Assembly: GCA_036768485.1 (NCBI GenBank) | Contig: JAVLUZ010000142.1 | Location: 10,717,456 to 10,781,455 of the forward strand | Reading direction: 5' to 3' | Origin: Mermis nigrescens | Taxonomy: Eukaryota > Nematoda > Enoplea > Mermithida > Mermithidae | Length of the DNA stretch: 64,000 nt | In this document: in pieces, positions 34,302 through 50,650 of the stretch | Numbering within the stretch: the stretch's first letter is position 1 | Layout of the letters: each line of letters opens with the position of its first letter | Program-made: the position numbers and the translations under genes | Notes under the pieces: generated by a model | Databases searched by the model: none | What the model was told of the DNA's origin: nothing | The model's input: the letters and a program-made list of their open reading frames with translations, nothing else

Positions 34302-35039
34302 AGTAGTATACCGGGCGTCCCTGGGACGCATGTGTTATAACATAGCCTATGTTATAGCATAGGCGAGGACGTAAAAATCTGCGCCCTGGCTTTTCTCAGG
34401 GCGCAATGCTGTAGCATAGGCTGTGTTGTAGCATGGGGACCTGCCCAGGGGAGGGGGCGCACGCACCAGCCCAGGGCCAGGGGTCCAGGGCCAGGGGAGG
34501 GGAAATTTCCATGGGGGAAATTTCCATGGGGCAAATTTCCATGGGGAAATTTCCATGGGTAAAAACTTGAAATAACTATAACTCAAGAACCAGCACTTGG
34601 ATCAGGCTGAAATTTTCTGAGAATGTTAAGTATATGTTGGGTATGATATATGCAAAATTTTAGCGCGCAACCTACAGTATACCAGCATTAGTTTACACTT
34701 TTGCATAACTCAAGAACCAATAACCGGATTTTGGTCAAATTTTCAGGATATGATGTATATAGGCGAGGCATGCTGCGCAAAGAATTTCAGCGCGCAACCT
34801 ACAGTATGCCAATTTACTTTACACTCTCTCATATAGCACTATATCTCAAGAACTATAGGGCGGATTTAGCTCAAACTTTTAGGGTGAGATAAATAAATGT
34901 CAGCTGTGTTATGTACAAAATTTTAGCGCGCAACCTACAGTATATCAATGTTTGTTAACACTGCTTGATTTTTAGCAATTTTAAGGATCAATTGTGTGCA
35001 CGCGCTTAGGCAGGGGTCCAGAGTCAGATAGGGGACACT
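34302..35039. repeat. Left terminal inverted repeat of the Polinton
   Basis: It matches 48494-49200 in reverse complement. It contains GTTATAACATAGCC, CTGCGCCCTGG, tandem GGGGAAATTTCCAT units (34497-34560) and three subrepeats carrying TAGCGCGCAACCTACAGTAT, and ends at GGGGACACT (35031-35039). Confidence 0.9.
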
Positions 35040-35472
35040 CCCTGGCTCAAATATGCAATGACTATATTGTTATTTTGGCTGCAGCATTATGCTGTAAAAT
35101 ATCGTTTTTAATAAAGCGAATAATTTAGAGGATGGTTAGAGTGCTAAAAATTGCAATACAACTCAAAATCTCATTAGAAATTGCACCAAGCTCTTCTTTA
35201 TGTAAGCATTTTTATTACTTTCTAGGCACCTTCCCTCAACATTAATTCCATTAAAATTTTCATCAATCTTGAAACAGCTTTTACGTTTAGTTACAAATTT
35301 CATAGACTCAAGTTTTGGAAAAACAGGTGGTTAAATTCTTCCAATCAGAAACTTGAAAATCGCAGCTGTCTCTCAAAATCATGTTTTGAACTGATCTGAG
35401 AAGCCTAATATAGTCTGCTAAATTATGACACACTATGGTAGACTCATTTGTATAATGATCACAGGTTTGTGT
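35040..35472. other. Polinton, non-coding left segment
   Basis: Between the inverted repeat and the stop codon of the first gene there is no convincing gene. A 55-codon open stretch follows the 35473 stop codon in the same frame and could be a decayed extension, but I do not recognise it. Confidence 0.4.
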
Positions 35473-36252
35473 TTACAGCCGATACCTGAAATGCATTTTA
35501 ACAATTGTTTTGCCAAATTCAAAAGGCACAGGTTTATCTTGATCACTTTTAATGTTCACTTCAATGGTATTGAATGATTTTTTGAGCACAGGTATATAAT
35601 GTGGACTAATATATGCGTGATTAACAATATCCATATATTTTCCTTCTATATTCACAACCTGCAGAAGCGGTGCAAAAACATTTCCAACGATTTGAGGCTC
35701 AACTATATCGCAATATACGTAAAAGTTGTGCATTCCACCTAGCATGTCGGGTGAATGGTGCGCAACTATGTTTAATTCTTTTTTCACAGTATAATCTATA
35801 TTGCTAAGCTGGCTCTCTAGAAATCCTAGCATATACATTAAATGCTTTGTCAGCTTTACACTTTGAATATATTCAGTATTGATTGTTAAGTTACAAAATT
35901 TCCTATTTTCATCATACTTTATGCCAAAATATTGCATGTAATCAAATTTGTCTATTTGGCTAACTGTTTTTATTCCATTCCTCATGGTTTGGATGAGGTC
36001 ATGTATATTTAAATATCTTGCTCGAGGAATAAGCAATTTTTGTCGCACATTGTTTTTGATGTCATAAAACTGTATCATATTCTGCTCCTCGGCAACATTG
36101 TGCCATGTATTTGCATAAATTATTTCAGCTAACCCAACCTCCCAGTCGCCAGTTAATGCGATTTGTCTAGGCAGATTGGTAACAAATGTGGCTGCAGTAT
36201 TTGTTTCTTGTGAATTGCTCGGAAGCGTTATGTAAAACTGTTTCATATCCAT
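35473..36252 (-). CDS. Polinton candidate minor capsid (penton/vertex) protein
   Basis: 259 aa, intact. It begins MDMKQFYITLPSNSQ and continues with NLPRQIALTGDWEVGLAEI, a signature I associate with a conserved Polinton protein that neighbours the major capsid protein and is predicted to form the vertex (single jelly-roll) subunit. That role is from family knowledge, not from visible catalytic motifs. The start may be Met1 or Met3 (36246); a TATAAATA box at 36279-36286 fits either. It lies 4 bp after the protease gene on the same strand, within the capsid module. Confidence 0.65.
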   Translation of the reverse strand: MDMKQFYITLPSNSQETNTAATFVTNLPRQIALTGDWEVGLAEIIYANTWHNVAEEQNMIQFYDIKNNVRQKLLIPRARYLNIHDLIQTMRNGIKTVSQIDKFDYMQYFGIKYDENRKFCNLTINTEYIQSVKLTKHLMYMLGFLESQLSNIDYTVKKELNIVAHHSPDMLGGMHNFYVYCDIVEPQIVGNVFAPLLQVVNIEGKYMDIVNHAYISPHYIPVLKKSFNTIEVNIKSDQDKPVPFEFGKTIVKMHFRYRL

Positions 36253-36256
36253 TTTT

Positions 36257-36673
36257 TTATAACCTTAGTTTATTAAAATATTTATAAATTTTTTTACTGA
36301 GCATAGATAGAACAATGTTTGTGAAACTTATGCCTTTGCTCATGCAGACCAAAAAGTAGATACACATATGACCACAGCTGATTGAGAAAAGCCCTTGTAC
36401 TCGCATATTATTGTATGTAAATGAGAGCGCATTATCAGAAATGTATTTATGCAATTGCACAGGTGGTTCTAAGCCATAGCTGTCAAAATAGTTGCAATGC
36501 TTCTTATTTTGAAAATAAATTGCGACCCAGTGTGATCCTGGTTCCTCACTGGGGTCCAAATTTACAACTAGAGCCGCAGGGTAGGTTCTTATAGGTGGCA
36601 GACGATCTATTGGGAAAACGCCTGCAAATGTATTATTATGTTTGAGAATTTTGAATATTTCAATAGTGTTCAT
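36257..36673 (-). CDS. Adenovirus-type cysteine protease (capsid maturation protease)
   Basis: 138 aa, intact. The catalytic layout of adenain/Ulp1-like proteases is visible: His48 in PGSHWVAIYF, Asp64 in YFDSYG, Gln93 in RVQG and Cys100 in SISCGHMC. The Gln-Cys spacing of seven is as in adenain. In Polintons and adenoviruses this enzyme cleaves capsid and core precursors during assembly. It overlaps nothing and sits between the major capsid gene (3 bp upstream) and the candidate vertex protein gene. No strong TATAAATA box precedes it, so it may be made from the capsid transcript. At 138 aa it is short compared with roughly 200 aa for adenain. Confidence 0.85.
   Translation of the reverse strand: MNTIEIFKILKHNNTFAGVFPIDRLPPIRTYPAALVVNLDPSEEPGSHWVAIYFQNKKHCNYFDSYGLEPPVQLHKYISDNALSFTYNNMRVQGLFSISCGHMCIYFLVCMSKGISFTNIVLSMLSKKIYKYFNKLRL
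36279..36286 (-). promoter_or_regulatory. TATA box of the candidate vertex-protein gene
   Basis: TATAAATA on the - strand, 34 nt upstream of the 36252 ATG, inside the 3' end of the protease gene. Confidence 0.55.
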
Positions 36674-36675
36674 GT

Positions 36676-37968
36676 TTATGCATCATAGTCATGAAACGTG
36701 TTTCGGTTTTTATCAATCATTATTAAGTTATCAAATTCAGCATATATAATGATTTCAATGCCAGAATCGGGCAAATTCTCAGAAAACCTAACAGCGATGC
36801 TTGTTGTTCCTTCACGGACTAGGTCCCAGTGTCCTCCATCATCTGCATCAGGAGTCAAATCGAACACAAAGAAGCAGTGACTTGTTTTAAAATCTTCTCT
36901 GCTAATGAAATTACCTTCATGCCCAATATCTAATGCATCAAACATCTGAGTATAGGCTTGCAAGTACCTGTCATGTTTAAATGAAATGCTGAGTGGGTAA
37001 GCAGGATATGTTATACCTCCACACGTTACTTTTACATCATTTATGCTGAACGGTTTGAAGTTGAAAGGCGATTTTGCTAGATTGCCTCGATAAGCACTGC
37101 CTTCAACACAAGCAAACACTATACGCCTAGGCAGCTGACCAGTAAACAATGTATAATTGGGCGTTTCTCTAGCAGGATTTGAAATGTGCAAATTAGTCAA
37201 AGCTACTCTCCTTATAGGATATTTTGCTGTATAGGAAAGCATTGTTTGCTCAAGAGCTAAATTCACAGTGTCCAAAACCTCAACTTTTCGAATAAAAAAT
37301 TTCATTTGTGAGACTTTCAAGTCAAGGCTGACATCCTCAAAGCACTGCAAAACAAATGCATTATTATTTCTGTGTAATTCTAGGCGGAAATCGGTAAAAT
37401 TAACTAAATATCTGTCTTGCAAGAACATGTCAATGTGCAGTGGGGCCGCAACTTCCACAACATTTTCATCTTTGAACATTTTTGAACGTTTTTTGAAAGC
37501 TTCATTGTCTTTTGTGTCAACATCACTTCCACCTTCGTGAAAGTACAGCGCAGATTGCAAATGCGAATGCTTGGCATCATACCCATAATTTAATTCGGTT
37601 TCAAAATACGATCTATATGCATATTTATCAGAGCTGTCAAAAACTAATTTGCCTCCTAAAAAGCATTTTACCTGCTTAAAGAAAGTCTTACCAATAAGAT
37701 TGATAGGCGCATAGTCAGGCACTGCTGCTCCAGCAGCAACTACTGGTTTTTTGATTCTCAGTAGCATGTAAATGTAGTTTTTATTGAGCTGAATGTAATG
37801 TGGATCAGGAGGTACTCTAAATTCATATGGTCCCTCATTAGTAATAGGATTTGTAGGTTGAATTTCATGCCAAAAACCACGCTTTATCACTACTTGAGTA
37901 GGAGGGACCGTAAAAAGGTCCAGTTCAGTCTTGGTACTGGGGATAGATTTTCCGTTTACGAGAGCCAT
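36676..37968 (-). CDS. Polinton major capsid protein (double jelly-roll)
   Basis: 430 aa if translation starts at the second Met (37968, MALVNG); an upstream in-frame Met at 37989 lies too close to the TATA box. The N-terminus contains ELDLFTVPPTQ and GFWHEIQPTNPI, blocks shared with the capsid-like proteins of animal Polintons. Downstream GKTFFKQVKCFLGGKLV, YRSYFETELNYG and LQSALYFHEGG fit the same family. It forms the hexagonal capsomers in family knowledge. Its 5' end overlaps the preceding 149-aa gene by 44 nt. The gene is uninterrupted, so the capsid could still be coded. Confidence 0.85.
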   Translation of the reverse strand: MALVNGKSIPSTKTELDLFTVPPTQVVIKRGFWHEIQPTNPITNEGPYEFRVPPDPHYIQLNKNYIYMLLRIKKPVVAAGAAVPDYAPINLIGKTFFKQVKCFLGGKLVFDSSDKYAYRSYFETELNYGYDAKHSHLQSALYFHEGGSDVDTKDNEAFKKRSKMFKDENVVEVAAPLHIDMFLQDRYLVNFTDFRLELHRNNNAFVLQCFEDVSLDLKVSQMKFFIRKVEVLDTVNLALEQTMLSYTAKYPIRRVALTNLHISNPARETPNYTLFTGQLPRRIVFACVEGSAYRGNLAKSPFNFKPFSINDVKVTCGGITYPAYPLSISFKHDRYLQAYTQMFDALDIGHEGNFISREDFKTSHCFFVFDLTPDADDGGHWDLVREGTTSIAVRFSENLPDSGIEIIIYAEFDNLIMIDKNRNTFHDYDA

Positions 37969-38374
37969 TTTTTTGTTTTGAAAAAGCATCTATCATGCTA
38001 GTATTTATAGACTTTGGGCGGCTACCAAGACCCTCTCCTTGCTGCTGCTGAAGGGCATGAGAGGCTTCATCAAACAATTGAGCAGCTTCTCGCTTTGAGT
38101 GTTCTTTAGTAGACTCAAAAAGCGGTTTTCCCTGGGCCAAATCAGACGCTATGTTTGAACCTGCAACTAGAGCATGTTTTCCAACTCGCTTACCAATTGA
38201 CTGCAAAACTGGGACTGCCATTCTAAAAAGCGAACGGAAAAAACTGCCAAGACCTACGCCCCGCTGGTATGGGATGCCTTTATACCCTTCCAACCCATAG
38301 CCTGTTTGGGCAGCCTGCCCTGTGTAGTAGTCCAACCAAATGTTGTAATCGTTAGGATTGAATTGAACGTGCAT
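37925..38374 (-). CDS. Polinton core/capsid-associated protein (adenovirus pVI/pX-like candidate)
   Basis: 149 aa, intact. Features: GYKGIPYQRGVGLGSFFRSL, then an amphipathic stretch (MAVPVLQSIGKRVGKHAL), a charged linker, a QQQQ run and a basic C-terminus (KNGSRKRKIYP). The RG.GLG..F..LFR..PVL pattern is a recurrent one in Polinton/adintovirus genomes next to the capsid gene, where it is thought to be a membrane-active or DNA-condensing virion protein. The assignment is by pattern only. The promoter box at 38413-38420 overlaps the stop codon of the upstream gene. Confidence 0.6.
   Translation of the reverse strand: MHVQFNPNDYNIWLDYYTGQAAQTGYGLEGYKGIPYQRGVGLGSFFRSLFRMAVPVLQSIGKRVGKHALVAGSNIASDLAQGKPLFESTKEHSKREAAQLFDEASHALQQQQGEGLGSRPKSINTSMIDAFSKQKNGSRKRKIYPQYQD
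38002..38009 (-). promoter_or_regulatory. TATA box of the major capsid gene
   Basis: TATAAATA in the 12-mer TCTATAAATACT (38000-38011, - strand); its 5' end is 41 nt upstream of the 37968 ATG. It lies inside the 149-aa coding region. Confidence 0.7.
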
Positions 38375-38412
38375 TTTTGTAATTTTGTTTTGAATAAATT
38401 ATATGTGATAAG

Positions 38413-38420
38413 TATTTATA
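38413..38420 (-). promoter_or_regulatory. TATA box of the 149-aa core protein gene
   Basis: TATAAATA in TCTATAAATACT (38411-38422, - strand), 46 nt upstream of the 38374 ATG. The TAA stop of the 182-aa gene is part of the box. Confidence 0.7.
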
Positions 38421-38964
38421 GACTTTCATCCCAGTCGAATTCCCCACCTGCAGCAAAAATCTCCTTACCTTGTCTATTTACTATACTTTCCAGTGGAACA
38501 TTTGTGCGATTAAACACTTTCAGCAATTCTTTTGTGCCAGGGTGCCTGCTTATTTTCTTACGCTCACGTGCAAGATCATTAACTAAATCTGTAATGTTTG
38601 AGCCTTCAATTCTATTGCCATCTATCACAAGCTCACCATTAGGCTCAATTTCAATAAATGGGTTTGTACGAATGTAGTGAAGAAGGAGTTTTGCCTTTGG
38701 GATCTGATTTTTTGGCATACCAACAAGCACATCTTCATCACTCAATGCATTCTTTGTATCTTCAACTATACTAGCTCTATATGGCTGCTGCTTTTGTTCA
38801 TATATTCGTTTAAATCTGTTAAGCACCTGATTGTATTTCATGAGTTTTATTTCAGGAGCTATACGTTTGCTATGCAAAACTTTTTGCATTTCATTATCCA
38901 AGGAATCTAGCACAACATCAATAGGTTTAGTCCGCTCGCTGATTCCAGCGGGTATAAGAATCAT
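38416..38964 (-). CDS. Polinton protein of unknown function, 182 aa
   Basis: Intact frame ending in EFDWDESL. Mostly helical, charged: a Lys/Arg-rich central part (NQVLNRFKRIYEQKQQ), then VGMPKNQIPKAKLLLHYIR and a glycine/asparagine turn. It lies between the core-type protein gene and the broken GG-motif gene on the same strand, a position held in other Polintons by a conserved unnamed virion protein. I do not recognise a catalytic motif. Only a weak TATA-like sequence precedes the ATG. Confidence 0.6.
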   Translation of the reverse strand: MILIPAGISERTKPIDVVLDSLDNEMQKVLHSKRIAPEIKLMKYNQVLNRFKRIYEQKQQPYRASIVEDTKNALSDEDVLVGMPKNQIPKAKLLLHYIRTNPFIEIEPNGELVIDGNRIEGSNITDLVNDLARERKKISRHPGTKELLKVFNRTNVPLESIVNRQGKEIFAAGGEFDWDESL

Positions 38965-38978
38965 TTTTTCAGTATGTT

Positions 38979-39076
38979 TTATTTTCTACCAGCTATTGCA
39001 TCAGCTAATAAACTACCAGCTATTGTAAGTATAGGAGTAAGTAACAGAGGAAGAAAACCACCTTCCTGTATTATAA
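38979..39076 (-). pseudogene. C-terminal fragment of a disrupted Polinton gene (GG-motif protein)
   Basis: On the - strand this encodes EGGFLPLLLTPILTIAGS and a short tail ending at the TAA of 38979-38981. The hydrophobic GGFLP segment is a conserved C-terminus of a small Polinton protein. The N-terminal part lies beyond repeat X at 43542-43794; repeat X (39077-43538) separates the two with TAA duplicated at both sides. Confidence 0.75.
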
Positions 39077-42000
39077 TACTAGCAAAGAAAAATGCTCCGA
39101 TGGAACAAAAAAGATGAATATACTTGGAATTGTGGATTATTAAGGATGTAAAAGGAGGGGACTAGGAAGAATCTACCTAAAGTCGCAAAATCTGCTAAAA
39201 ATAACACTTTCTCTAAACAACGCAAAAAATCGAAGTATATTCTGCGGCCTCTAAAAAGTGTCTTTTTTAAATAATATTCAAAATTTCAGATAATAAACGA
39301 AATCTATAATGTTTCCTTTTTTTAAATTGCTGGCAAGTAGCAACACTGACTAGCTTCGTATCCTGATTGAAAGAAAACTTAGTGGTATTGTATTTAAAGT
39401 TGTTTTATTTTGCTATGAGCATTATAGCAAGCAAAGCAGGGGCCGATTGATTAGTGCACACAATCGTTACGGGCATGCTAGTGTACCTACATTTAGTCTG
39501 TTTCAAGTCAACTCACGCGTTTCCTACTGTTTTGAACCAACAATTCTTGCAATTGTTTTGGATGCATCGATGTTTGCTATTTCATTCAATTGGCTTAGAA
39601 AGACTGTTACTCGATATCATTTCCCATAGCTGCTGCATAGCTAACGTGCTGCTTTTTCAATCATTTTTATGGTTAAATATTTATTCTAATGTGTTGACCG
39701 CAGAATATACTTCGATTTTTTGCGTTGTTTAGAGAAAGTGTTATTTTTAGCAGATTTTGCGACTTTAGGTAGATTCTTCCTAGTCCCCTCCTTTTACATC
39801 CTTAATAATCCACAATTCCAAGTATATTCATCTTTTTTGTTCCATCGGAGCATTTTTCTTTGCTAGTACCCTACTTTTAATTAGCATGATTTCAGTGCAT
39901 CTGTCAGCAAACACATACAGTAACATACCACAATAATGACAGCAGTCCAAGAACGCGGAAAACAATATTGTTCTTAACATAAATTAATTGCCTCTAAATT
40001 TAAAAAATATTGTTTTAAAAAAAGACTCCCTAGATTTTATAACCGTCTACCTTTTGAAATCAATCAGACTGCATAGAATTTAAAACTGAGTTAGATATGC
40101 TCTTGATTGTCGGAAGTATTAAGTTTACTATTTTTTATTAGCTATAGTAAATATATGTTACATTCTAAACAGTCCTGTAAGTTATAGAGGTCGTTCCACA
40201 TTCAAATTAACTTGGAAACGACATATAACGTACCTACGGGACTTACTTAAGTACCTGGCTACACTTAGCGCTGGTCAGGTTGCTAGGGCGAAACGCCGGA
40301 CTCAACCACACGACCCTCAATAACTACGGTCTCAAACTCCTCGGACCTAAATTCGTCCGTACCTACGGAGCTATTGGCAGCTATGCCCTAAAAACCTAAC
40401 GCAGTAGTAATTAAGTAACCCCGGAATTTCGCCCTAGGTCAGTTGACCTATTTTGGACCAAAATAATAATTAACGCAAAAAGCTTTGTTAACTTGCTTTC
40501 GCCAGAGAATACCTATGGCGAAAAACTATTTCTTTTCTGGTTCCTACGAGCACAATGAACAATGAAAACAACAAAAAAGAGCTCTCAACCAGCCAGTCAT
40601 CTTACATAAAAATTATGAAATAATTTTTATGATTTTTAAATTGAAATTTGGGTGTTTGAATTTGCGATAAAGAAAATAATCAAAAGACAGTCACTTGGAT
40701 TATTTAAGCCGAGTAATAAAATAAGGGCCGTCCACCAATTCCGAACTAAACGCGATTGATCACTATGAAAAAGTTTTGAAAAATGAGCTTGCTAAGCGAG
40801 AGTTGTAAACCAAGAGAAACTTAAAGTTTAAACCTACCATTAAATTATGAAGAGAATTGTAAAAGATTTTAAACTTTAAGAAAATTGAAAAAGGTGGGAT
40901 GTTGGTAAATTAAAAAACAAAGTTTTTCGGCAAAAATTCCAAAATTTCACGCAAATATCAAGTGTAAGGAACACTAACGCTCAGATTTGGTAGTAAAATA
41001 AATTTGTAGTATAAACTACATATTAACAACAAATGAATTGTGCAAACTTTACAAAACTACTAAGTGTAGAGAATACTAACAGTCAGATTCCCAATTCTGA
41101 TTTTACGTAGAAAAAAACTAGAATTTTACTTTATTTTTATCCTATTCGACCTCGCCCGACTTCTGAACAGAGAAAGTGGCGAACAAAAAATGTACAAACA
41201 CGTATTTTCCACTGTCCACCACATTGTAAACTTTAAAAATCTGAACCTAACGCCCATTGAATGTAAATAAATTCGGTTCGGGCCAGTTTGTTGCCCTTTG
41301 ATTGTATTAGGTTTGTATGTGCCAAACTTATGTTCCGCAAAATATTTGATATGATTTATCAATCAAAATACGAAAAAACCTGTTTTTTTCGCCCACTTTA
41401 CACCTCAGATTTCGAACTTTACACCCTATAAACAACTTCAATATAACGTTTTTTTGAACGCGGCTCGCTTCGACGTGTAGCCATTAGAACTTACTTTATT
41501 TCTATTTTATTTAATTAACCCCAACTTTTGGCAGAGAAATCTTGGACAAAATCTGTTTTTTACTCATCCACTAGAAAGTAAAGTTTAAAACCCTGGTACT
41601 AACTGCGTATTGATTGTAGAAAAGTTTGCTGGTAAGCACAAGATAGCCCTTGATCCGAAGTACATTTCTGTCAGAAAAAATTTCTAGTCGGATTCGTAAT
41701 TTTGATATTGCTCCGATATTACTTTCAACATTTATGGAAAAATGAGTCTCCATAATGTTTTAAAGACAAATAAACATTAGGTTTAAACCACTTTGCAATA
41801 CTGCTGAGTGTAAGCAAGCGCGCCCAACTGACGTATATATTTCATTCCCTGTAAATTTTTAGATCTCAGGAAAAAATTTCGGTTTTTGCAATGCTCTAGA
41901 ACAAAGGCTAACATGCAGTGTAAAAAATTACTCGGATATTATGATCAACATTCATGAAAAAATTATGTCTCTACAATGGTCTGAGGACAAATAAACAATG

Positions 42001-43538
42001 AGTGTAAACTACTTCACATCACTTTTGGATGTAAACAAACGCGCCTACGTGACGTCTCACATTTGATCCTTTGAAAATTTTTAGACTCCAGGAAAAAATT
42101 AGGTTTCTGGAATGCTCAAAAACGAAGATAAATACATATGCAGTGTAAACTTCATGTAAACAACTAGTGTAAAGAAAACTTTGGTCAGATTCGTAATTTT
42201 GATATTGTTCCGATATTACGATTAATATTAATGAAAAAATTAAGTCTCCATAATGTTCTATGGGCAAACTAACAATTGGTGTAAACCACTTTACAACACT
42301 GTAGAGTGTAAACATATACGCCAGATTGACATATCATATTTGGTTCCTGGTCCATTTCTAGACTTGATAATCGTGTCCCTGACTCATAACCGGAGAAGCA
42401 GGCAGAAAAAACAAGACAGAAACGCATTTTAAACACCAAATTTTTGACTTTACACTCGCTAAATATTAATGTATTGACAATTTGCTTTGACATGCACCCG
42501 ATATAAAGCACTTTATTTTTATTCTATTGGACTTATCCCGACTTCTGGACGGAGAAAGTGGCGAACAAAAAAGGCAACAAAAACGTATTTTCCATCATTT
42601 GGAACACTGTAAACTTTAAAATTCCGTACCGAACTCCTCATTGAGTTTAAAGAAATTCGGTTTGGTACAATTTGTAGCTTTTAAATCGTAGTACATTCCT
42701 GTGTGCCAAAATTCTCTTGCAAAAATTATTTGGTATGATTTATTAATCGAAATTTGGAAAAAACGTGTTTTTTCGCCCATTTTTCACCACTGATTTCGAA
42801 CGTTACACCCCCATAAATAACTCAATATTGCGTTTTTTAAGTGCGGTTTGCTGCGATGTGTAGCCCCTGAGAGGCACTTCATTACTGCTGTATTTAATTC
42901 ACCCTGACTCATGAGTGGAAAAATTTGGCAGAGAAATATTAGTTAGAATCCGTTTTTTACACCATCCACTAGAGTGTAAACTTTAAACCCCAGGATCTAA
43001 CTCACCATAGAGCATAGAAGAGTTTGCTTATATGCAGAATGTAGCCCTTGATCCGCTCTACATTTCTGTCAGAAAACATTTTGAAAAACTCATAACCGGA
43101 GTTAGTATCGGACATAAGCAGGTTGAAAACTCGACCAAAAAGTGCTTTTTCACCCCCAGATTTTCGCACTCTTTACACTGCCATTCGATAACTAATGCGA
43201 ATTTCAAAAAACAAAAAGATTGCCATCTGTAGAATTCATCCCTCTATTATCCTATGCTGTTCAATTCTTCGAGTCATCAATACTCAGTTGTCCACATGCC
43301 GCAGTAAAAAGGTCCCAAAATTTGCCCTATGTTATAACGTTACACAAAAACTTTACACCTTCTTCACACAGTCAGTTTTGAGTTTCAAGAAAAACAAAAA
43401 ACACGAGCAGCGAATTTTTTTATTATCTTTCTTTTAAAAAAACCGCACCTTCCAGAAGTGTCCCGTTATAGCTGTAGGGGGGTGCACAGGTGTTAGGGGT
43501 ACCCAAGTATATTATAGGTAACGCGCTAACGCGCTACC
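39077..43538. repeat. Repeat X, copy 2, inserted into the Polinton
   Basis: It begins TACTAGCAAAG with the long fold-back (39077-39868) and ends with the terminal hairpin TAGGTAACGCG..CGCGCTACCTA (43515-43540, which includes the TSD). Flanking TAA at 39074-39076 and 43539-43541 is a 3-bp duplication; removing the element and one TAA makes the disrupted gene collinear again. Inside, GTGTAAA..TTTACAC palindromes and blocks shared with copy 1 occur in reverse order. A segment at about 40210-40640 seems to be a further insertion. No coding region was recognised. Confidence 0.8.
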
Positions 43539-43541
43539 TAA

Positions 43542-43794
43542 GATCTTTCTTTTGTTTTGTAGTCGCCTGCTTATTGTTTGCCAGTTATCTAATTTGATTC
43601 TGATATCTTCGAAGTTTATTTATATCCTTTTAATCGAAGGGAATATTACCATTCAGAAAGTTGTTTGCACAGTCACAGAGACAAAGGATTTGATCTTTGC
43701 TGGCAGTATTTATAATAGCGGTTCTTTGAGGTTTTTTTGCTTGACTTAGGAGATGTAAACAACCAATATTGCGTGTTAATCGTTCTTTACCCAT
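43542..43794 (-). pseudogene. N-terminal part of the disrupted Polinton gene (GG-motif protein)
   Basis: The frame starts at ATG 43794-43792, inside the last codons of the ATPase gene, and reads through SKDQILCLCDCANNFLNGN, a conserved small-protein signature (paired Cys residues then a GN turn). It then hits in-frame stop codons (the first TAA at 43630-43632, a second about 45 nt later) before reaching repeat X. So this gene carries both nonsense mutations and a 4.46-kb insertion. Its TATA box is at 43820-43827. Confidence 0.75.
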
Positions 43795-44438
43795 TTTTTT
43801 GTCGCAATATCTCTACTAGTATTTATAGATTTCTGCATATAAACAGTTGGATGCCTGCTAAAAATATTTGTTTTAAGACTGAGCTCATCTCTAGTATTTT
43901 GAGTTAGATCAATTAAAAGGTAACCATGTGGCTGAGAAGTAGCATCAGAATAAGCTTCTAGAAAATATTTAGCGTTGGCAGGATAGAGCTGTCTGGAAAG
44001 CATTTGTGCCTGTAACTGATCAGCAGGGTGTTTGAATAAAACTATATAATCAGAGTTGATGCGTGAAGTTCTTAGACCATCAAAGAAAACGTTTTGAACA
44101 ATGTGTATAATGCTAATGTTCCAATGATGACAACTCCTTGTAAAAAGTTGCACAATCTGGGCATTACCCTTGCTCTGTTGCATAAGATCATCGAGAATCA
44201 AAAGTTGAGGCACATGACTAAATTGTTTTAGGTAATTAAAATCAGGAAGCCCTTCTATGAATGAAACATCATTTAATTTTTTATAAAGAGGCTGATTTTC
44301 TGCGAAGCACCACCAAATCTTTTTAATTTTAGTATCAATCAGGCATGCTCTATTCTCAATTAATCGCTTGACAAATGTTGTTTTGCCTGACTTTGTTGGT
44401 CCTGAAACAAGGCAGGTGAAAGGATGTTGGAACATCAT
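43776..44438 (-). CDS. Polinton genome-packaging ATPase (FtsK/HerA, A32-like)
   Basis: 220 aa, intact. Walker A is GPTKSGKT (residues 13-20) and Walker B LLILDDL (79-85) with the acidic pair at 83-84. A sensor-like HIVQNVFF follows. Size and motif spacing fit the A32-type ATPases that pump DNA into Polinton, adintovirus and large DNA virus capsids. Start is Met1 or Met2. It is divergently arranged with the TBP gene: the two start codons are 47 nt apart and each has its own TATA box in that gap. Confidence 0.9.
   Translation of the reverse strand: MMFQHPFTCLVSGPTKSGKTTFVKRLIENRACLIDTKIKKIWWCFAENQPLYKKLNDVSFIEGLPDFNYLKQFSHVPQLLILDDLMQQSKGNAQIVQLFTRSCHHWNISIIHIVQNVFFDGLRTSRINSDYIVLFKHPADQLQAQMLSRQLYPANAKYFLEAYSDATSQPHGYLLIDLTQNTRDELSLKTNIFSRHPTVYMQKSINTSRDIATKKWVKND
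43820..43827 (-). promoter_or_regulatory. TATA box of the disrupted GG-motif gene
   Basis: TATAAATA in TCTATAAATACT (43818-43829, - strand), 33 nt upstream of ATG 43794, inside the ATPase coding region. Confidence 0.65.
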
Positions 44439-44447
44439 GGTTTTAGG

Positions 44448-44457
44448 TATAAATATA
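44448..44457 (+). promoter_or_regulatory. TATA box of the TBP-like gene (half of a divergent promoter)
   Basis: TATAAATATA on the + strand, 37 nt upstream of ATG 44485. The partner box for the ATPase gene lies 14 bp away on the other strand. Confidence 0.65.
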
Positions 44458-44471
44458 AGTTTATCAGGAAG

Positions 44472-44479
44472 TATTTATA
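44472..44479 (-). promoter_or_regulatory. TATA box of the ATPase gene (half of a divergent promoter)
   Basis: TATAAATA in TCTATAAATACT (44470-44481, - strand), 41 nt upstream of ATG 44438. Confidence 0.7.
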
Positions 44480-44484
44480 GAAAA

Positions 44485-45003
44485 ATGGTGACTATACAAA
44501 ATATTTTACTGACTACAGCACTACCCCATACGCTTAACCTCGAAGAAATCTACCAGAAATTACCAAAGACTGCACAATACAATTATTTGAGATTTCCAGG
44601 AATTGTATTTCGACTACCTCAGGCAACATTACTGATTTTCAAATCAGGTAAAATTGTATGTGTTGGAGCCAAAACAGTGAAAGATGGTGAAAGTGCTATA
44701 AAAGCAGCTGTAGATGCATTAAATGCTAGAAGTGATGATTTAAAGGTGAAACCCCATATGTTTGCAGGCTCTGCAAATTTAGGGTTCCGCATTAATCTTT
44801 GCAAATTTTATGAGCTGGTGAAAAGAAAATGCATGTATGAAGTGGAATTGTTTCCTGGTTTAATATACAAATTCAGAAATATAACATTTTTGCTGTTCAC
44901 AAGCGGAAAATTGATCCTTACAGGTGCAAAACAGGAGCATGAGTTGCATAGAGCATATAAAATAGTTTCAACAATGCTTGAGAAATGCAGGTTAGATACA
45001 TAA
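44485..45003 (+). CDS. TATA-box-binding protein (TBP) homologue encoded by the Polinton
   Basis: 172 aa, intact: two TBP repeats and no N-terminal extension. Repeat 1 has YLRFPGIVFRL then LLIFKSGKIVCVGAK; repeat 2 has YEVELFPGLIYKF then LLFTSGKLILTGAK. The second is nearly a textbook TBP signature (ELFPGLIY, SGK..LTGAK). All four DNA-kinking phenylalanines are kept (F37, F52, F123, F138), as is the first DNA-contacting Asn (N6 in IQN). The equivalent Asn of repeat 2 is a His (PHM). Both repeats are two residues shorter than cellular TBP between the paired Phe, in the stirrup loop. I chose ATG 44485 because the in-frame sequence upstream belongs to the ATPase region and the TATA box is 37 nt away. 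Role: binding promoter TATA boxes to start transcription; here probably those of the element. Certain as a TBP fold; its specificity is inference. Confidence 0.9.
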   Translation: MVTIQNILLTTALPHTLNLEEIYQKLPKTAQYNYLRFPGIVFRLPQATLLIFKSGKIVCVGAKTVKDGESAIKAAVDALNARSDDLKVKPHMFAGSANLGFRINLCKFYELVKRKCMYEVELFPGLIYKFRNITFLLFTSGKLILTGAKQEHELHRAYKIVSTMLEKCRLDT

Positions 45004-45233
45004 TATTTCAAACTTTACAAAAAATATTCCAAACTTTACAAAAAATATTCCAAACTTTACAAAAAATATTCCAAACTTTACAAAAAATATTCCAAACTTT
45101 ACAAAAAATATTCCAAACTTTACAAAAGTACTATGCTTAAGCATGTAAAATTATTTCCAAATTTTACAAAAAATATTCCAAACTTTACAAAAAATATTCC
45201 AAACTTTACAAAAAATATTCCAAACTTTGCAAA
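45004..45233. repeat. Ten tandem 21-bp units between convergent Polinton genes
   Basis: Units contain TTCCAAACTTTACAAAA at a 21-bp period: six nearly perfect copies, a spacer (about 45127-45155) holding the palindrome ATGCTTAAGCAT, then four more. It starts at the TBP stop codon and ends at the stop of the convergent 106-aa gene. Confidence 0.9.
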
Positions 45234-45236
45234 TTT

Positions 45237-45557
45237 TTAGATCAATACTGATGACATGGATGAAGTTATGTGTTCATCAATGATTTTTGTATGGAGGTTC
45301 GCAAAGTAAAACCTAGCCTCAGGGCTTAAAAATTCCCACAAGTTAAACAGCAGGCAAAGATCGCCCTTTTTCAGGCGTTTTCTGATAAACTTTGAGAAGC
45401 TCAAAATAGCATGATCATCAAATTTGAGCAATGTTTGCCTATACTGGTTGCTCATTTTTGGCCAAAAATAATCACCAATGGCATCATTAGACAAATGTGC
45501 GTATTGTGATAAACGATGTAGAATATGATTGAAAAAACACTGACCAATAGACTCCAT
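45237..45557 (-). CDS. Small Polinton protein, unknown, 106 aa (paralogue of 46778-47104)
   Basis: Intact frame MESIGQCFFNH... It shares a pattern with the product of 46778-47104: IG..FW..MS near residues 27-36, then D..A...F, D...L..L and N......I at matching spacing. Predicted mostly helical, soluble. The start is supported by a TATAAATA box 32 nt upstream (45582-45589) that overlaps the end of the integrase gene. Function unknown; accessory regulator or host-interaction protein are possibilities, not claims. Confidence 0.6.
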   Translation of the reverse strand: MESIGQCFFNHILHRLSQYAHLSNDAIGDYFWPKMSNQYRQTLLKFDDHAILSFSKFIRKRLKKGDLCLLFNLWEFLSPEARFYFANLHTKIIDEHITSSMSSVLI

Positions 45558-45581
45558 TTTTGATCTTAAGATTTAACTTAC

Positions 45582-45589
45582 TATTTATA
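45582..45589 (-). promoter_or_regulatory. TATA box of the 106-aa gene
   Basis: TATAAATA within GCTATAAATAGT (- strand), 32 nt upstream of ATG 45557. It overlaps the integrase stop region. Confidence 0.65.
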
Positions 45590-46643
45590 GCTTTACAATA
45601 TCAGAAACCCACGAGTCAAATTTAGGAGGGTAGCCTCTCCAGCGCACCAAATAATCAGTTTTCTTGCCTTTTTTACGAATTTTTATAATTTTTTCAATCA
45701 CGAATAAATCATCTGATTTTGCACTAATTTTTTGCAACTCGGTTTCGTAGAAAACACCCTCTAATTTTTCCCCCTTTTGATCTTCGAGAGTATAAACGGG
45801 TGGTGTGCGAGCAAATCTCTCTTTAACAATGAAATATTCTTCGGTCCAGTTGGGCCAGAACCCTTTTTCGAATGTGCGTTTCACTTTACTTATACGAACT
45901 TTATCACCAATATCAAATTTAAAGACAACGTTCGGTTTATCAATCCTGAATGCCTTGTTCAAAATTTCTCTTTCGTTTTTATAGGTAACGTTAGCGGGGG
46001 ATGTACCAATGGTCCTATGAAAAGAATTATTATAATTTTTAAGCAAATCGGGCAAAATGTCAATATATTTAAATGTATTCTTTTTAGTGAAATATCGCCA
46101 CATGCGTTCTTTAAGCGTACGATTAAACCGCTCAACAATACTAGCTTTCATTTCGCTTTTGGTCGTGAAAAAGTCAATAAATTGAGATTTCAAAAATTGC
46201 TGAAATTCCTTGTTTGTAAACTCAGTTCCCTGATCCGTTTGCAGTTTATATGGTTTACGGCCCGACGATTTGAAAATTTTCTGAAAAGATGCAATAATTT
46301 CTTTACCAGTTTTTGATTTAAGTGGCACTGACCATGCGTACTTTGAGAAAATATCAATACAATTGAGTAGGTACTTAAAATTATGATTGTGGTCGGCTAA
46401 CGATTGCAGATCAACCAAATCCGCTTGCCACTGCTCATCAACCCCGCTAACTATTACCTTGTTACGCGAATAATGTTTCTTTGCAGGTTTGTGTAGTGTA
46501 TATGTGGGTTGCTTTTCCAGCCATGCTTTTACCTTTTCAAATTTTATAGCTGGACGTAACTTTTTCACTCGAGCAAAAAGTTGATTCGCCCCCGTATACC
46601 CAGTTTGAGGGTCATAATATAATTTTGTCAACAATTTATCCAT
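45585..46643 (-). CDS. Polinton integrase (retroviral-type rve) with C-terminal chromodomain
   Basis: 352 aa, intact. The catalytic triad is visible: Asp75 (WQADLVDL), Asp137 (QTDQGTEFTNK) and Glu171 (ASIVERFNRTLKERM). A C-terminal chromodomain covers about residues 318-352 (VIEKIIKIR, YLVRWRGYPP, DSWV). This is the typical Polinton integrase, which inserts the linear DNA and makes the 6-bp duplication seen at the element's ends; the chromodomain may steer it to modified histones. Only a weak CATAAATA (46668-46675) precedes it. It is transcribed in the same direction as the capsid module. Confidence 0.93.
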   Translation of the reverse strand: MDKLLTKLYYDPQTGYTGANQLFARVKKLRPAIKFEKVKAWLEKQPTYTLHKPAKKHYSRNKVIVSGVDEQWQADLVDLQSLADHNHNFKYLLNCIDIFSKYAWSVPLKSKTGKEIIASFQKIFKSSGRKPYKLQTDQGTEFTNKEFQQFLKSQFIDFFTTKSEMKASIVERFNRTLKERMWRYFTKKNTFKYIDILPDLLKNYNNSFHRTIGTSPANVTYKNEREILNKAFRIDKPNVVFKFDIGDKVRISKVKRTFEKGFWPNWTEEYFIVKERFARTPPVYTLEDQKGEKLEGVFYETELQKISAKSDDLFVIEKIIKIRKKGKKTDYLVRWRGYPPKFDSWVSDIVKL

Positions 46644-46686
46644 TTTTACATTTATTTTATTTTTTAATATTTATGCTCTTATTGGC

Positions 46687-46761
46687 CGATCAAACGGATC
46701 GTTTCCGGCTCCCACCGCGTGGAGGTTAAGAGCAACGGGAGCCTGCGTTTTTCGAAAACGC
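46687..46761. other. Cluster of three hairpins in a GC-richer spacer
   Basis: In the 134-bp gap between integrase and the next gene: CGATC/GATCG (46687-46701), GGCTCCC/GGGAGCC (46707-46743) and GCGTTTT/AAAACGC with a TCG loop (46745-46761). The spacer is clearly richer in GC than the rest of the element. Function unknown. Confidence 0.6.
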
Positions 46762-46777
46762 ACATTTTTCTGTAAAT

Positions 46778-47104
46778 TCACAACAAACGATCTACTTGTT
46801 GCAAAATACAGTTATCATACATGTTTTCCCACATGTTCTTTCCATTTTGATCAAAAGCCGCATACAAGCCACACAAAGAATCAATATCTTTGTCTAAAAT
46901 GGCTGCTTTTAATTTTAATGCAAAAATCCAAAATGCTTCGCGTTTATCAATTTCGCGCTGTTCCTCCTTGAATGCATCGCTCATGTATCCCCAGAAACAG
47001 GAGCCTATACTCTGAACATTTCTGACGCTCAAGTAGCGATTGTTAGCTTTTTCAATAAGCTTTCGGACAAACTGGTGGTACGCTAGTTCACCGGGTGAAG
47101 ACAT
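46778..47104 (-). CDS. Small Polinton protein, unknown, 108 aa (paralogue of 45237-45557)
   Basis: Translation probably starts at 47104 (MSSPGELAYHQ), because the in-frame ATG at 47137 is only 20 nt from the TATA box (47150-47157), ahead of the expected transcript start. The product keeps the pattern IGSCFWGYMS, then DKREAFWIF, DIDSLCGLY and N..ENMYDNCI, matching the 106-aa protein at the same spacing. Together they look like a duplicated, diverged small gene family flanking the integrase. Helical, soluble; no known domain recognised. Confidence 0.6.
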   Translation of the reverse strand: MSSPGELAYHQFVRKLIEKANNRYLSVRNVQSIGSCFWGYMSDAFKEEQREIDKREAFWIFALKLKAAILDKDIDSLCGLYAAFDQNGKNMWENMYDNCILQQVDRLL

Positions 47105-47149
47105 GCTTTCTTTTAATAAGCTGCGTATAATATACATAACGCGTACCCT

Positions 47150-47157
47150 TATTTATA
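47150..47157 (-). promoter_or_regulatory. TATA box of the 108-aa gene
   Basis: TATAAATA in GTCTATAAATAAGG (- strand), 53 nt upstream of ATG 47104. Confidence 0.6.
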
Positions 47158-47160
47158 GAC

Positions 47161-47493
47161 TTAGTAAGCTGTTTTGGCCTTTTCCTCCTCAGCCTGCTGA
47201 TCAGAATAGCGCATTAGCACTCGTTTGCCTGCTTCTTGCATGGCTCTATTAAACTCACTGCACCTAGGGCACATTTGGATATTCAAATACCACCTGCCAG
47301 AATTTGTTTCAAAAATGTCCCTTTCAGAACTATTTTTCTGACAATAATAACAAAGCTGGATCATTAAGGCATACATGGGCCGATCCAGGTTTCTGCCACA
47401 TAGCTCTATGACCGGTTTGATTGACCTGCCATAAGGCTTTTTCTCCTCATCCACAAAAAGACGCTTTTTAAGTTCTCTTATTTCTTCCATTTT
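47161..47493 (-). CDS. Small zinc-ribbon-like Polinton protein, 110 aa
   Basis: From the second Met (47493, MEEIRELKKR) the product has two CxxC pairs, CYYC and CPRC, about 27 residues apart, with a glycine/aromatic loop between them, so it probably binds one zinc ion. N-terminal and C-terminal parts are charged and helical. The first in-frame ATG (47526) is only 14 nt from the TATA box at 47533-47540, so the second is preferred. It is divergent from the polymerase remnant. In an element encoding TBP a second transcription-factor-like protein is an appealing idea, but the motif alone does not prove it. Confidence 0.6.
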   Translation of the reverse strand, partial: KMEEIRELKKRLFVDEEKKPYGRSIKPVIELCGRNLDRPMYALMIQLCYYCQKNSSERDIFETNSGRWYLNIQMCPRCSEFNRAMQEAGKRVLMRYSDQQAEEEKAKTAY

Positions 47494-47532
47494 AGTACTA
47501 AGAAGATTAGTTAAACAGTAGACCATTATTAG

Positions 47533-47540
47533 TATTTATA
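47533..47540 (-). promoter_or_regulatory. TATA box of the zinc-ribbon gene (half of a divergent promoter)
   Basis: TATAAATA in TCTATAAATACT (47531-47542, - strand), 47 nt upstream of ATG 47493. Confidence 0.7.
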
Positions 47541-47557
47541 GATTTTGAGTGTATGTC

Positions 47558-47565
47558 TATAAATA
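47558..47565 (+). promoter_or_regulatory. TATA box of the polymerase remnant (half of a divergent promoter)
   Basis: TATAAATA in TCTATAAATATG (+ strand), 45 nt upstream of ATG 47603; 17 bp from the opposing box. Confidence 0.65.
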
Positions 47566-47602
47566 TGGGTAAGTATTACTCTGCAAAGTTCTTACATTAA
47601 AA

Positions 47603-48373
47603 ATGGATCTGAATAAATACTTTGAAGTACATGAGTTCCCAGAGATTTTTGTTCGTAGGTTCAAGACAACTGCAAGAGCATTTTCGCTGCAGTTTAAGAA
47701 ATGCCCTAATCTGTTTGAGGTCTTTGAGCAGATTTTTGAGGAAGCTATTAAGCAGATGTTGCATGACTGCCCTCCTGACTTTTTGGTAGGTATTGAAATT
47801 AGACAGCCGTGCCTTCATGCGCCTGTATTAGTTCCATTTACTCAACGTGAGTATAAAAATGCTGACAAGGTTTTGAGCATTATAGAAAATGTAGCCCAGT
47901 CTAAGAACGAGTTTTGCTTAAGCGAGGACATAGCTTTCAAAATAGTTATTGTTGATAAAAAACAACAAACCGGAACTGGCCTTGAAACTGATGTGAGGGA
48001 GTTTTGTAAAAATGGAGGTGGATATATTTAAATCAACTCAAACGATAATGTATCCCTACCTCGAGCTGTTGTAACAGGAATAGCAAAGCTGGACAATAGG
48101 CCAAAATGGGAGTCTATAAGAAAAGGAGATAAGATGCGGCACACCATACAAAGGCAGCTAGCATTAGAACTGATGCACAAAGCTAATCTTAGCATTAATG
48201 AAGATAAATATGGGCTTGAAGCTGTAGAGAAAATTCAAAATGCTTTGGTGCCAGAGTACTAAATAGGAATATATCATGGCAATATTTTGTTTTTTGAAGG
48301 ACCTGAAGCTGACAAGGTGATTCACTTGCACACTGCTAATAATCATTATAACCTGATAACAAAAATGCCCTAA
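47603..48373 (+). pseudogene. N-terminal remnant of protein-primed DNA polymerase B (pPolB), with nonsense codons
   Basis: The frame starts at MDLNKYFEVHEF and keeps phase for 256 codons to 48371, interrupted by in-frame TAA at 48029-48031 and 48260-48262. Conserved pieces of the N-terminal region of Polinton polymerases are visible: VPFTQREYKNADKVLSIIE, AKLDNRPKWESIRKG, QLALELMHKA and FFEGPEADKVIHLH. The exonuclease, terminal-protein and polymerase motifs that should follow are absent: about 120 bp after the last conserved piece the terminal repeat begins. Thus most of the gene is deleted and the rest is stopped. The element could not replicate with its own polymerase. Confidence 0.75.
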
Positions 48374-48493
48374 TTCTAGCTAATCTGTGGCAACATTTTA
48401 GTGAGAAAGCAAAAGAATATTATGCATCACGAACGATCAATCGATGAGTGTTTGACGTGAATCGGCAAAAATCATATAGTGTAAAGTGACGGT

Positions 48494-49200
48494 AGTGTCC
48501 CCTAACTGACTCTGGGCCCCTGCCTAAGCGCGTGCACACAATTGATCTTTAAAATTGCTAAAAATCAAGCAGTGTTAACAAACATTGATATACTGTAGGT
48601 TGCGCGCTAAAATTTTGTACATAACACAGCTGAGATTTATTTATCTTACCCTAAAAGGTTGAGCTAAATCCGCCCTATAGTTCTTGAGATATAGTGCTAT
48701 ATGAGAAAGCGTAAAGTAAATTGGCATACTGTAGGTTGCGCGCTAAAATTCCTTGCGCAGCATGCCTTGCCTATATACATCATATCCTGAAAATTTGAAC
48801 AAAATCCGGCCATTGGTTCTTGAGTTATGCGAAAGTGTAAACTAATGCTGGCATACTGTAGGTGCTCCATCAAAATTTTTGTAATAGTTTGCTAATAAGG
48901 TGTTCATCACCCCTAAAATTTCAGCCCAATCCGACCGCTGCTTCTTGAGTTATTTCCCCCATGGAAATTTCCCCCATGGAAATTTCCCCCATAGGAATTT
49001 CCCCGCGAATTTCCCCCTCCCCTGGCCCTGGGCTGGACGCGCGCCCCTCCCCCGGGCAGGCACCTATGCTACAACACAGCCTATGCTACAGCATTGCGCC
49101 CTGAGAAAAACCAGGGCGCAGATTCTGAGCCCCTCACGCCTATGCTTATAGCACAGGCTATGTTATAACGTTGCGTCCTAGGGACGCCCGGTATATTACT
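48494..49200. repeat. Right terminal inverted repeat of the Polinton
   Basis: Reverse complement of 34302-35039, including AGTGTCCCC at its inner end, the CTACAGTAT subrepeats, the GGAAATTTCC units (48955-49015) and CGCCCGGTATATTACT at its outer end. Confidence 0.9.
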
Positions 49201-50650
49201 CACATCCGAGTCGTGAAACGAGCTGACGGGAAATAGCCCATGAGTTCGACGAGTGTGTATGTGCACCGCACTTACAGTGTTAACTTTACACAATCACCTC
49301 AGTGTATAGATCTTAGTCGGATTCGTGATCCTGATATTACTCATGATTTTACAATCATTATTTATGAAAAAAATACCTCTCCACAATGGTCTGAGGAGAA
49401 ATAAATATTGCATGGAAACACTTAACACCACTGTCGAGTGTAAACAAGCGCAACCGAGTGACGTAAGGCGTTTTACCCCTAGTACATTTTTAGACTTGTG
49501 ATCATGTCCAGACTCAACCGGAGATGTTGACATGAAAAAACAAGACAAAAACACGTTCAACACCCGCGATTTTAGACTTTACATCTCCCGAAAAGCTCAA
49601 TATTGATGTAAATGAACATAATTTGCTGTGACGTATATTCCATAGAAAGTACCTTATTTTTATTCTATTCGACTTATCCCGACTTCGAAACGGAGAAGTT
49701 GGCGAACAAAAAAAGGACAAAAACGTATTTTTCCACTATCCACTACGTTGTAGACTTTAAAATATGAACCAATGTCTCCATTGAGGTAAAGAAATTCGGT
49801 TTAAGCCGATTTATAGCCTTTGAATCGTAGTATGTTCGAGTGTAGTAAAACTTCTGTTCAGCAAAATATTTGATATTTTGACCAATCAAAAAATAGAAAA
49901 AAACGTGTTTTTTCATTTAATATTACGCCTCTGATTTCGAACTTTACACCTCTATTAGTAATTCAATATTAAGTTTTTCAAGCGCGATTTGCTGCGACGT
50001 GTAGCCCTTAGAACGTGCTTTAATTTTGTTCTATTCAATTTGTCCCGACTTGTGGAGAAGTTGGCGGAGAAATCTCAGACAAAACCTGTTTTTTACACCA
50101 TCCACAAGAGTGTAAAGTTTGAACCCCTAGATCTAACTCTGTATTGAGTGTCAAAAAGTTTGCTGGTAAGCCGAAAGCAGCCATTGAGTCGTAGTACATT
50201 TTTCTCAGAAAAATTTCCTAGGCCTCAAAACCAGAGTTGTTGGCAGACAAAAAACAGGCCAAAATGTGTCTTTTCACCCTCAGATTCTTTACACTCTTTG
50301 CGATGCCAATCTAGGAATGAGTCACTTTAAAAAAATACAGAATGCCTTCTAGCTTAATTAATTGTCTACATTGAAAAAACCAGACTAAACAGAATGCAAA
50401 ACTGAGCTAGAAAAGTCGTGAGCCCCACCAAAATTTAAAAAAACATTGTTATAACGTTACCGTAAAATTTTACACGCTCTTTACACACCGAGTAGAAGTG
50501 TAAAAAATAAAAAACGGCGGCATCAAATTTGTTTCATTATCCATCTTTTTTGAAAAAATCGCACGATACAGAAGTGTCCCAGTGTTGCTGTAGGGGTGGA
50601 TATACATGTTGGGGGTACCCAAGTATATAATAGGTAGTAATTCTTACGCG
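49201..50650. repeat. Repeat X, copy 3, right part
   Basis: It continues the sequence interrupted by the Polinton: one more CACATCCGA..CGAGCTGACGGGAAA unit, then GTGTAAA..TTTACAC palindromes and blocks shared with copies 1 and 2, ending at CCCAAGTATATAATAGGTAG with a degraded terminal hairpin. Confidence 0.7.

Follow-up and report, generated by a model that had tools for sequence, protein, structure and literature searches.

A TATA-binding protein gene as a standing component of a Polinton lineage in the nematode Mermis nigrescens

Eukaryotes and archaea universally use the TATA-binding protein (TBP) as a general transcription factor. Genes for it have been reported in mirusviruses (PMC10132985) and in giant or large algal viruses (PMC11464507, PMC4602308, PMC12085832); in the parts of this literature that were searched, the reports concern large viruses or their relatives. 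Among endogenous virus-like elements, the heliorhodopsin mobile elements of Cymbomonas are reported to carry TBP genes sporadically and to be linked to mirusviruses, and no double jelly-roll (DJR) capsid gene, packaging ATPase or DNA polymerase was found in them (PMC10675990). A literature search for Polintons or Mavericks together with TBP found no TBP in a Polinton within the text portions it covered, a survey of nematode Polintons (10.1093/molbev/msad274) and an adintovirus paper (10.1093/ve/veaa055) lying outside it. Elsewhere among nematodes, Romanomermis culicivorax is reported to hold 6.5 Mb of Polintons (PMC10879605). Likewise, term searches met no mention of TBP in the searchable portions of PMC10120064, PMC8097293, PMC4642659, PMC11071308, PMC12220804 and PMC9952930.

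Here, we analyzed a stretch of 64,000 nucleotides of the Mermis nigrescens genome (the window), in which a Polinton at 34302–49200, bounded by terminal inverted repeats (TIRs) and a 6-bp CACATC duplication, carries a TBP gene. Its features are as follows.

34296–34301, no strand: left target-site duplication CACATC, read from the sequence
34302–35042, no strand: left TIR with a 5'-AG start, from pairwise alignment with the right TIR
35473–36252, minus strand: penton-like minor capsid protein, 259 aa; open reading frame (ORF) with homologues beside TBP in other loci
36257–36673, minus strand: adenovirus-type cysteine protease; Pfam PF00770, E 1.4e-05, 25.3 bits (cut-off 21.3)
36676–37989, minus strand: candidate major capsid protein (MCP), double jelly-roll-like; PF21738, E 0.0073, below cut-off
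37925–38374, minus strand: orf149, conserved Polinton gene; ORF, also in other loci
38416–38964, minus strand: orf182, conserved Polinton gene; ORF, also in other loci
43776–44438, minus strand: packaging ATPase (A32-like); Pfam PF04665, E 6.1e-05, 23.0 bits (cut-off 22.8)
44448–44455, plus strand: TATAAATA box of the TBP gene, at -37 from the TBP ATG
44472–44479, minus strand: TATAAATA box belonging to the ATPase gene, oriented towards the TBP promoter
44485–45003, plus strand: TBP; intact ORF from ATG to TAA, 172 aa, with Pfam and PDB matches
45002–45233, no strand: 21-bp tandem array, 11 copies; repeat search, similar arrays in other loci
45237–45557, minus strand: orf106, between the array and the integrase gene; ORF
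45585–46643, minus strand: integrase (INT) with chromodomain; Pfam rve E 9.9e-15 and Chromo E 6.8e-09, both above cut-off
46778–47137, minus strand: orf119; ORF
47161–47526, minus strand: orf121; ORF whose homologue adjoins TBP in family C
47603–48031, plus strand: possible N-terminal fragment of a protein-primed DNA polymerase (PolB); ORF, presumed resemblance
48491–49200, no strand: right TIR, from pairwise alignment
49201–49206, no strand: right target-site duplication CACATC, read from the sequence

The element shares with animal, adintovirus-like Polintons (Mavericks) its TIRs, 6-bp target-site duplication, retroviral-type integrase with chromodomain, adenovirus-type protease and A32-like ATPase; there are also candidate capsid and penton genes, the MCP by a profile match below the cut-off and the penton by resemblance. 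It differs from them in the extra TBP gene, which occurs in three orders, and in a PolB that is not intact in the window copy. Compared with the mirusvirus-linked Cymbomonas elements, the likeness lies in a TBP gene within an endogenous virus-like element and the difference in the packaging ATPase, which the window Polinton possesses. The two TIRs are identical at 639 of 695 aligned bases, gaps not counted. Repeats of several hundred bp with 5'-AG ends are a Polinton/Maverick trait, and the left TIR begins with AG. The ATPase match is only just above the cut-off of its profile; the MCP candidate adjoins protease and penton genes in other loci too. The 259-aa product gave no Pfam match and is called penton-like by resemblance, and the ORF at 47603–48031, without a Pfam or PHROG match, is possibly an N-terminal PolB fragment, again by resemblance. 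No Polinton ORF was recognized between 39.0 and 43.7 kb, part of which has inverted repeats in common with 30.0–30.5 kb; this copy is damaged there and in the polymerase region. The left flank consists of a 34-bp repeat (2.2 copies) that contains CACATC, and a similar unit, recognized by eye, resumes right of the element, as expected if the Polinton inserted into that repeat. Internal sub-repeats of the TIRs (34575–34949 and 48571–48828) give secondary inverted matches, with a repeated GCGCGCAACCTACAGTAT seen by eye. The first-pass annotation of this DNA had placed the TBP gene between the packaging ATPase and the 21-bp array, inside a Polinton delimited by target-site duplications, and the coordinates, TIRs and CACATC copies confirm this position.

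The same annotation had described an intact two-repeat TBP frame of 172 aa, which is borne out by the open frame and by a strong match to the Pfam TBP profile PF00352 (E 1.4e-41; 140.6 bits, cut-off 22.9) in two stretches, both repeats being present above the curated cut-off. This two-stretch match was also found in six further Polinton-type TBPs. The window protein matches 35 distinct PDB sequences, the best being the TBP 1mp9 (E 1.8e-28); the name or database entry identifies 34 of them as TBPs or TBP fusions, and the exception is named only ECU04_1440 protein. The four DNA-bending phenylalanines claimed earlier were confirmed in the alignment: all four intercalating positions, which we take to be 99, 116, 190 and 207 of yeast TBP, are Phe.

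To find further copies, three TBP proteins were compared with the 524-Mb assembly of the organism itself. The window TBP gave at least 150 scored matches at 75–100% identity and a TBP of family D also at least 150, while the rows obtained with yeast TBP, again at least 150, comprise two host exons and 148 other places (31–44% identity). The union of the three match lists holds at least 411 places, or at least 409 non-host TBP-like places after removal of the two host exons, a lower bound on matches in which fragments and stop-containing frames are counted too; stops are present in many of the genomic copies.

About 10 kb were read around 19 of the non-host places, all chosen from the yeast-query list (L021–L039), and another Polinton gene lies beside TBP in every one. 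In the 16 loci of family B a penton gene adjoins TBP, and in 12 of these the ATPase, orf182, orf149, MCP and protease genes lie beyond the penton on the same strand. Family C accounts for the other three (L033, L036 and L037). The order in L037 is protease-MCP-penton-INT-orf121-TBP, the penton being recognized by eye. In L033 and L036, orf121 beside TBP is the sole trusted Polinton match, since their integrase matches are weak and were not counted, that of L033 coming after a reverse transcriptase frame and that of L036 overlapping a 21-bp array. With the window, which belongs to family A and reads INT-orf106-array-TBP-ATPase, the TBP gene is found in three gene orders. A further set of loci (L041–L060) is only 0.9–1.8 kb long, so that family D, the subfamilies B3 and B4, and L057–L060 are called Polinton TBPs by tree position and not by their neighbours; listed integrase copies lie near L057 and L058 (contig C131), and none is listed for C128:1401473. 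Some TBP genes occur in pairs: two of different subfamilies on one strand, 3 kb apart (L026:2847–6496), and two pairs in inverted orientation, the distance between starts being 0.9 kb in L055 and 1.6 kb on contig C814 (153384 and 155001). Such pairs suggest nested or palindromic element fragments.

The linkage was also followed from the integrase side. Among the 115 integrase matches listed, 64 have a TBP from the window-query list within 8 kb, 59 of these pairs being convergent and 5 on the same strand. For five more of the 115, the nearby TBP comes from the yeast or family D lists and lies within 1.4 kb, start to start. L076, picked from the remaining 46, belongs to a diverged subfamily; in it, orf106-array-TBP-ATPase follows just past the integrase copy, with TBP between ATPase and orf106 like in the window; a TBP between ATPase and integrase is thus found in other Polintons, as the first-pass annotation had suggested looking for. 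Altogether, at least 70 of the 115 listed integrase copies (64 + 5 + 1) have a TBP nearby among the TBP matches listed, where simple arithmetic (409 places in 524 Mb) gives about 1–2 by chance. We conclude that an element-encoded TBP of eukaryotic type is a standing component of an animal Polinton lineage. As a separate observation, the five same-strand pairs (contigs C59, C61, C333 and C751) are all exactly 1,805 bp apart, which suggests a sub-lineage in which the element was rearranged.

The Polinton TBP genes are under purifying selection. In 12 of 15 codon comparisons dN/dS was 0.08–0.29, two of these 12 at dS above 2.6, and in the 10 with dS below 1 it was 0.13–0.29. Two of the 15 comparisons were saturated, and the young pair C_L033/C_L042 gave a dN/dS of 0.97 at a dS of 0.04.

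For the origin of these genes, two trees were built, both without any sequence recognized as TLF (TBPL1). The first has 46 rows, among them 25 Polinton-type TBPs, six archaeal rows and nine viral rows from IMG/VR, where a search with a general TBP alignment had yielded 12 viral loci; L071 was excluded because it has a single repeat, L069 as a duplicate of L068 and L070 as a near-copy of L064, and P0007 was cut by 70 residues. Single-protein searches of IMG/VR, with one TBP each from the window, family B and family D and with P0007, confirmed no relative. In this tree the Polinton TBPs form two supported clades, A+C+D (96/93) and B (100/99), joined with only 49/45, and both lie on the eukaryotic side, with long branches, apart from the group of host, yeast and plant TBPs (98/92). 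Seven of the nine viral TBPs fall with the archaeal ones, and the other two form long branches outside the group of eukaryotes and Polintons. Five listed proteins of 272–289 aa (P0010–P0014), apparently of archaeal type, have by eye three TBP-like repeats, not two. The second tree has 55 rows, 24 of them added from 120 listed proteins, with long ones trimmed to the C-terminal 210 residues. It keeps two of the six archaeal rows and none of the nine viral ones, and P0002 and P0009 were omitted as well. Here a branch with 91/90 support separates the 25 Polinton rows and P0128 from the other rows, P0128 joining family B (97/87). The two archaeal rows fall among cellular eukaryotic rows, which makes the root of this tree uncertain. 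P0128 itself is an environmental TBP of 176 aa, without N-terminal extension, on a 1.4-kb contig, and its position hints at relatives in another organism beyond this genome.

These data bear on several possible sources. Nothing beyond TBP homology favours the idea that the gene was recently taken from the host TBP, or that it is a host gene trapped as a passenger in one element. The host TBP is a separate gene of two exons about 2.7 kb apart (L040) that groups with the nematode TBP P0217 (95/94 in the second tree), and its exons are 80% and 68% identical to yeast TBP, compared with 31–44% for the non-host frames of the yeast-query list. The Polinton TBPs, for their part, are single open frames in many copies under selection. 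Their place in the trees apart from the host, together with dN/dS values of 0.08–0.29, speaks for neither a recent capture nor a passenger; along with the intron-split host gene and the copy number, it rules this origin out, leaving it a negligible probability. The near-identity to the host TBP in a single copy, which the first-pass annotation had named as the opposing outcome, is not what the trees and the hundreds of copies show. An origin from the sampled viral TBPs is unsupported as well. The Polinton proteins resemble those of mirusviruses and giant viruses in being virus-encoded TBPs, but do not group with the nine IMG/VR rows that represent viruses in the tree. With the cellular TBP, a subunit of TFIID, they share the two repeats, the Phe wedges and the TFIIB-contact residues, and they are of eukaryotic, not archaeal, type; they differ from it in lacking an N-terminal domain, in their single open frame and in changed DNA-contact and helix residues, and a branch with good support in the second tree separates them from the sampled cellular TBPs.

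We interpret this pattern to mean that a eukaryotic-type TBP was acquired long ago, probably once, and later moved within the elements. Independent captures by different Polintons, a question of history and not of function, would fit the three positions of the gene, the poorly supported join of the two clades in the first tree and the best topology of the second, which puts P0128 inside, so that forcing the 25 Polinton rows alone into one clade lowers the log-likelihood by 4.08 units. The difference is not significant, however (p-AU 0.111, not rejected), and with the wider cellular sampling a supported branch sets all 25 rows and P0128 apart. We regard several captures as possible but doubtful.

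The roles given here for individual positions follow work on yeast and Arabidopsis TBP. The four intercalating phenylalanines are kept in 21 of the 25 Polinton-type rows; L060 has Ile at one of them and three family C rows have Tyr at one. Glu186, Glu188 and Leu189, presumably the positions that contact TFIIB, are exactly kept in 20 of the 25 Polinton rows; at 189, Gln is found in the archaeal and viral rows. Asn159 is replaced by Met or Leu in family A alone, and Thr124 by Val, Ile or Leu in families A, B and C (Val in family A), Thr being kept in D. The changes at both positions in family A could weaken binding to canonical TATA sequences.

We also looked at the sequences upstream of the genes. 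TATAAATA lies within -50 to -10 of 9 of the 12 window genes, compared with 1.6% of element positions (binomial p 1.2e-14), and ATAAATA lies in this interval at 10 of the 12. TATAAA is likewise found at the same nine genes, against 2 of the 44 control ORFs that lie beyond the ends of the Polinton. Boxes of the TATAAATA type stand 14–46 bp upstream of most element genes. In the window, orf182 and the protease gene have no TATAAA box, and the other copies shown likewise have none there; upstream of the integrase gene only CATAAATA is found. The boxes of the TBP and ATPase genes face each other 16 bp apart, each near the expected transcript start of the other. Both are kept in L057, L058, L059, L076 and the near-copies L004 and L006; in L060 the TBP box is kept and the sequence at the ATPase box is changed.

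The boxes vary between families. In family B, whose loci are close relatives, TCTATAAAAGA precedes orf149 in 13 of 13 starts and CTATAAAAGA precedes the MCP gene in 13 of 13, at -17 or -57, preceded by T in 4 and by C in 9 (one orf149 row and 13 MCP rows that start inside the gene were set aside); these genes are orthologous to those of the window, and CTATAAAAGA is present at both. The penton starts of family B have a TCTATTTAAGAT-type sequence instead of TATAAA. In family C, TCTATAAATATGA stands before orf121 in all three loci, the MCP gene of L037 has no TATAAA within 75 bp of its start and one only at -89, and TATAAA is absent upstream of the three TBP genes. Upstream of TBP itself, family A copies including the window have TATAAATA, subfamily B1 has TATATAAG and B2 has TATAAATA; among six family D rows, TATAAA is found in four and TATATAAG in a fifth, the sixth having just a TATATA run. 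Since B2 carries the same box as family A, the box type is not tied to the TBP family at every gene.

The reading that we favour, with a probability of about 0.6, is that the element-encoded TBP would be an initiation factor acting at the TATA boxes of the element together with host TFIIB and RNA polymerase II. The element would make its own TBP, which would bind the TATAAATA-type boxes upstream of most element genes, bend the DNA and recruit host TFIIB and RNA polymerase II, and element genes could then be transcribed without dependence on host TBP/TFIID and its regulation. We infer DNA binding, partner recruitment, independence from TFIID and expression timing from the sequences. The profile match, the kept Phe and TFIIB-contact residues, the low dN/dS, the enriched and family-specific boxes and the linkage to the integrase gene all argue for such a role. 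Against it, host TBP alone could read the TATA boxes of the element; orf182 and the protease gene are boxless, the family C TBP genes are without TATAAA and B2 has the box of another family; and there are the Asn159 and Thr124 changes, the pair with a dN/dS of 0.97 and the many copies with stops. The first-pass annotation had suggested a private transcription-initiation module: boxes that are enriched and family-specific, and purifying selection, have been added in its support, and the module as such would still be an interpretation of these.

A different target is conceivable for the same protein. In the window TBP the TFIIB-contact residues are kept, but Glu, Ala and Ala stand at the basic positions K133, K138 and K145, which we take to be contacts of TFIIA, Mot1, NC2 and TFIIIB in yeast. 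A TBP able to bind TFIIB and none of these other partners could be a decoy that competes with or poisons host TFIID or the regulators of TBP (shut-off or derepression), the element boxes being read mainly by host TBP. K138, however, is unchanged in 18 of the 20 rows that belong to families B, C and D, and family-specific TATA variants at orthologous genes fit a TBP that acts on element DNA, so we consider a host-directed role rather unlikely.

The array raises another alternative. A 21-bp AT-rich array lies beside TBP in family A (the window, L057, L058, L060 and L076), and a similar unit occurs in family C one to several kb from TBP (L033:1310–1673 and 6195–6339; L036:8371–8729). None was found in the four family B loci tested out of 16 (L021, L024, L028 and L031) or in L037. 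The array is possibly an origin, an enhancer or a packaging signal. Its neighbourhood to TBP, its counterpart in L033 and L036 and the bending wedges kept in most rows would suit a DNA-bending architectural protein that serves replication, integration or packaging, for example at the TIRs or the array, and not transcription. Yet the array is missing from those five loci, the kept TFIIB-contact residues would be unexpected in a purely architectural protein, and the TATA boxes sit at gene starts; we judge this role to be improbable.

Within the favoured reading of an initiation factor for the element's own genes, we tentatively suggest private TBP–TATA systems that diverged together by family, with the facing boxes of family A, of which perhaps only one is usable at a time, as a simple built-in early/late switch, although the odds are rather against it. 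In family A, a TBP whose DNA-contact residues are changed and whose regulatory helix is stripped would then go with TATAAATAC boxes, and in family B a TBP closer to the canonical form with TATAAAAGA boxes at the capsid genes.

If such private systems exist, Polintons would be small DNA viruses with a partly self-sufficient initiation by RNA polymerase II, of which we know no case outside giant viruses and mirusviruses. A TBP gene that is under selection and has been relocated repeatedly would show that an element of about 15 kb is able to carry its own promoter-recognition factor. Natural TBP–TATA pairs that diverged side by side in one genome would offer a test of how TBP specificity and regulation evolve, and the finding may bear on the expression and silencing of Polintons in nematodes.
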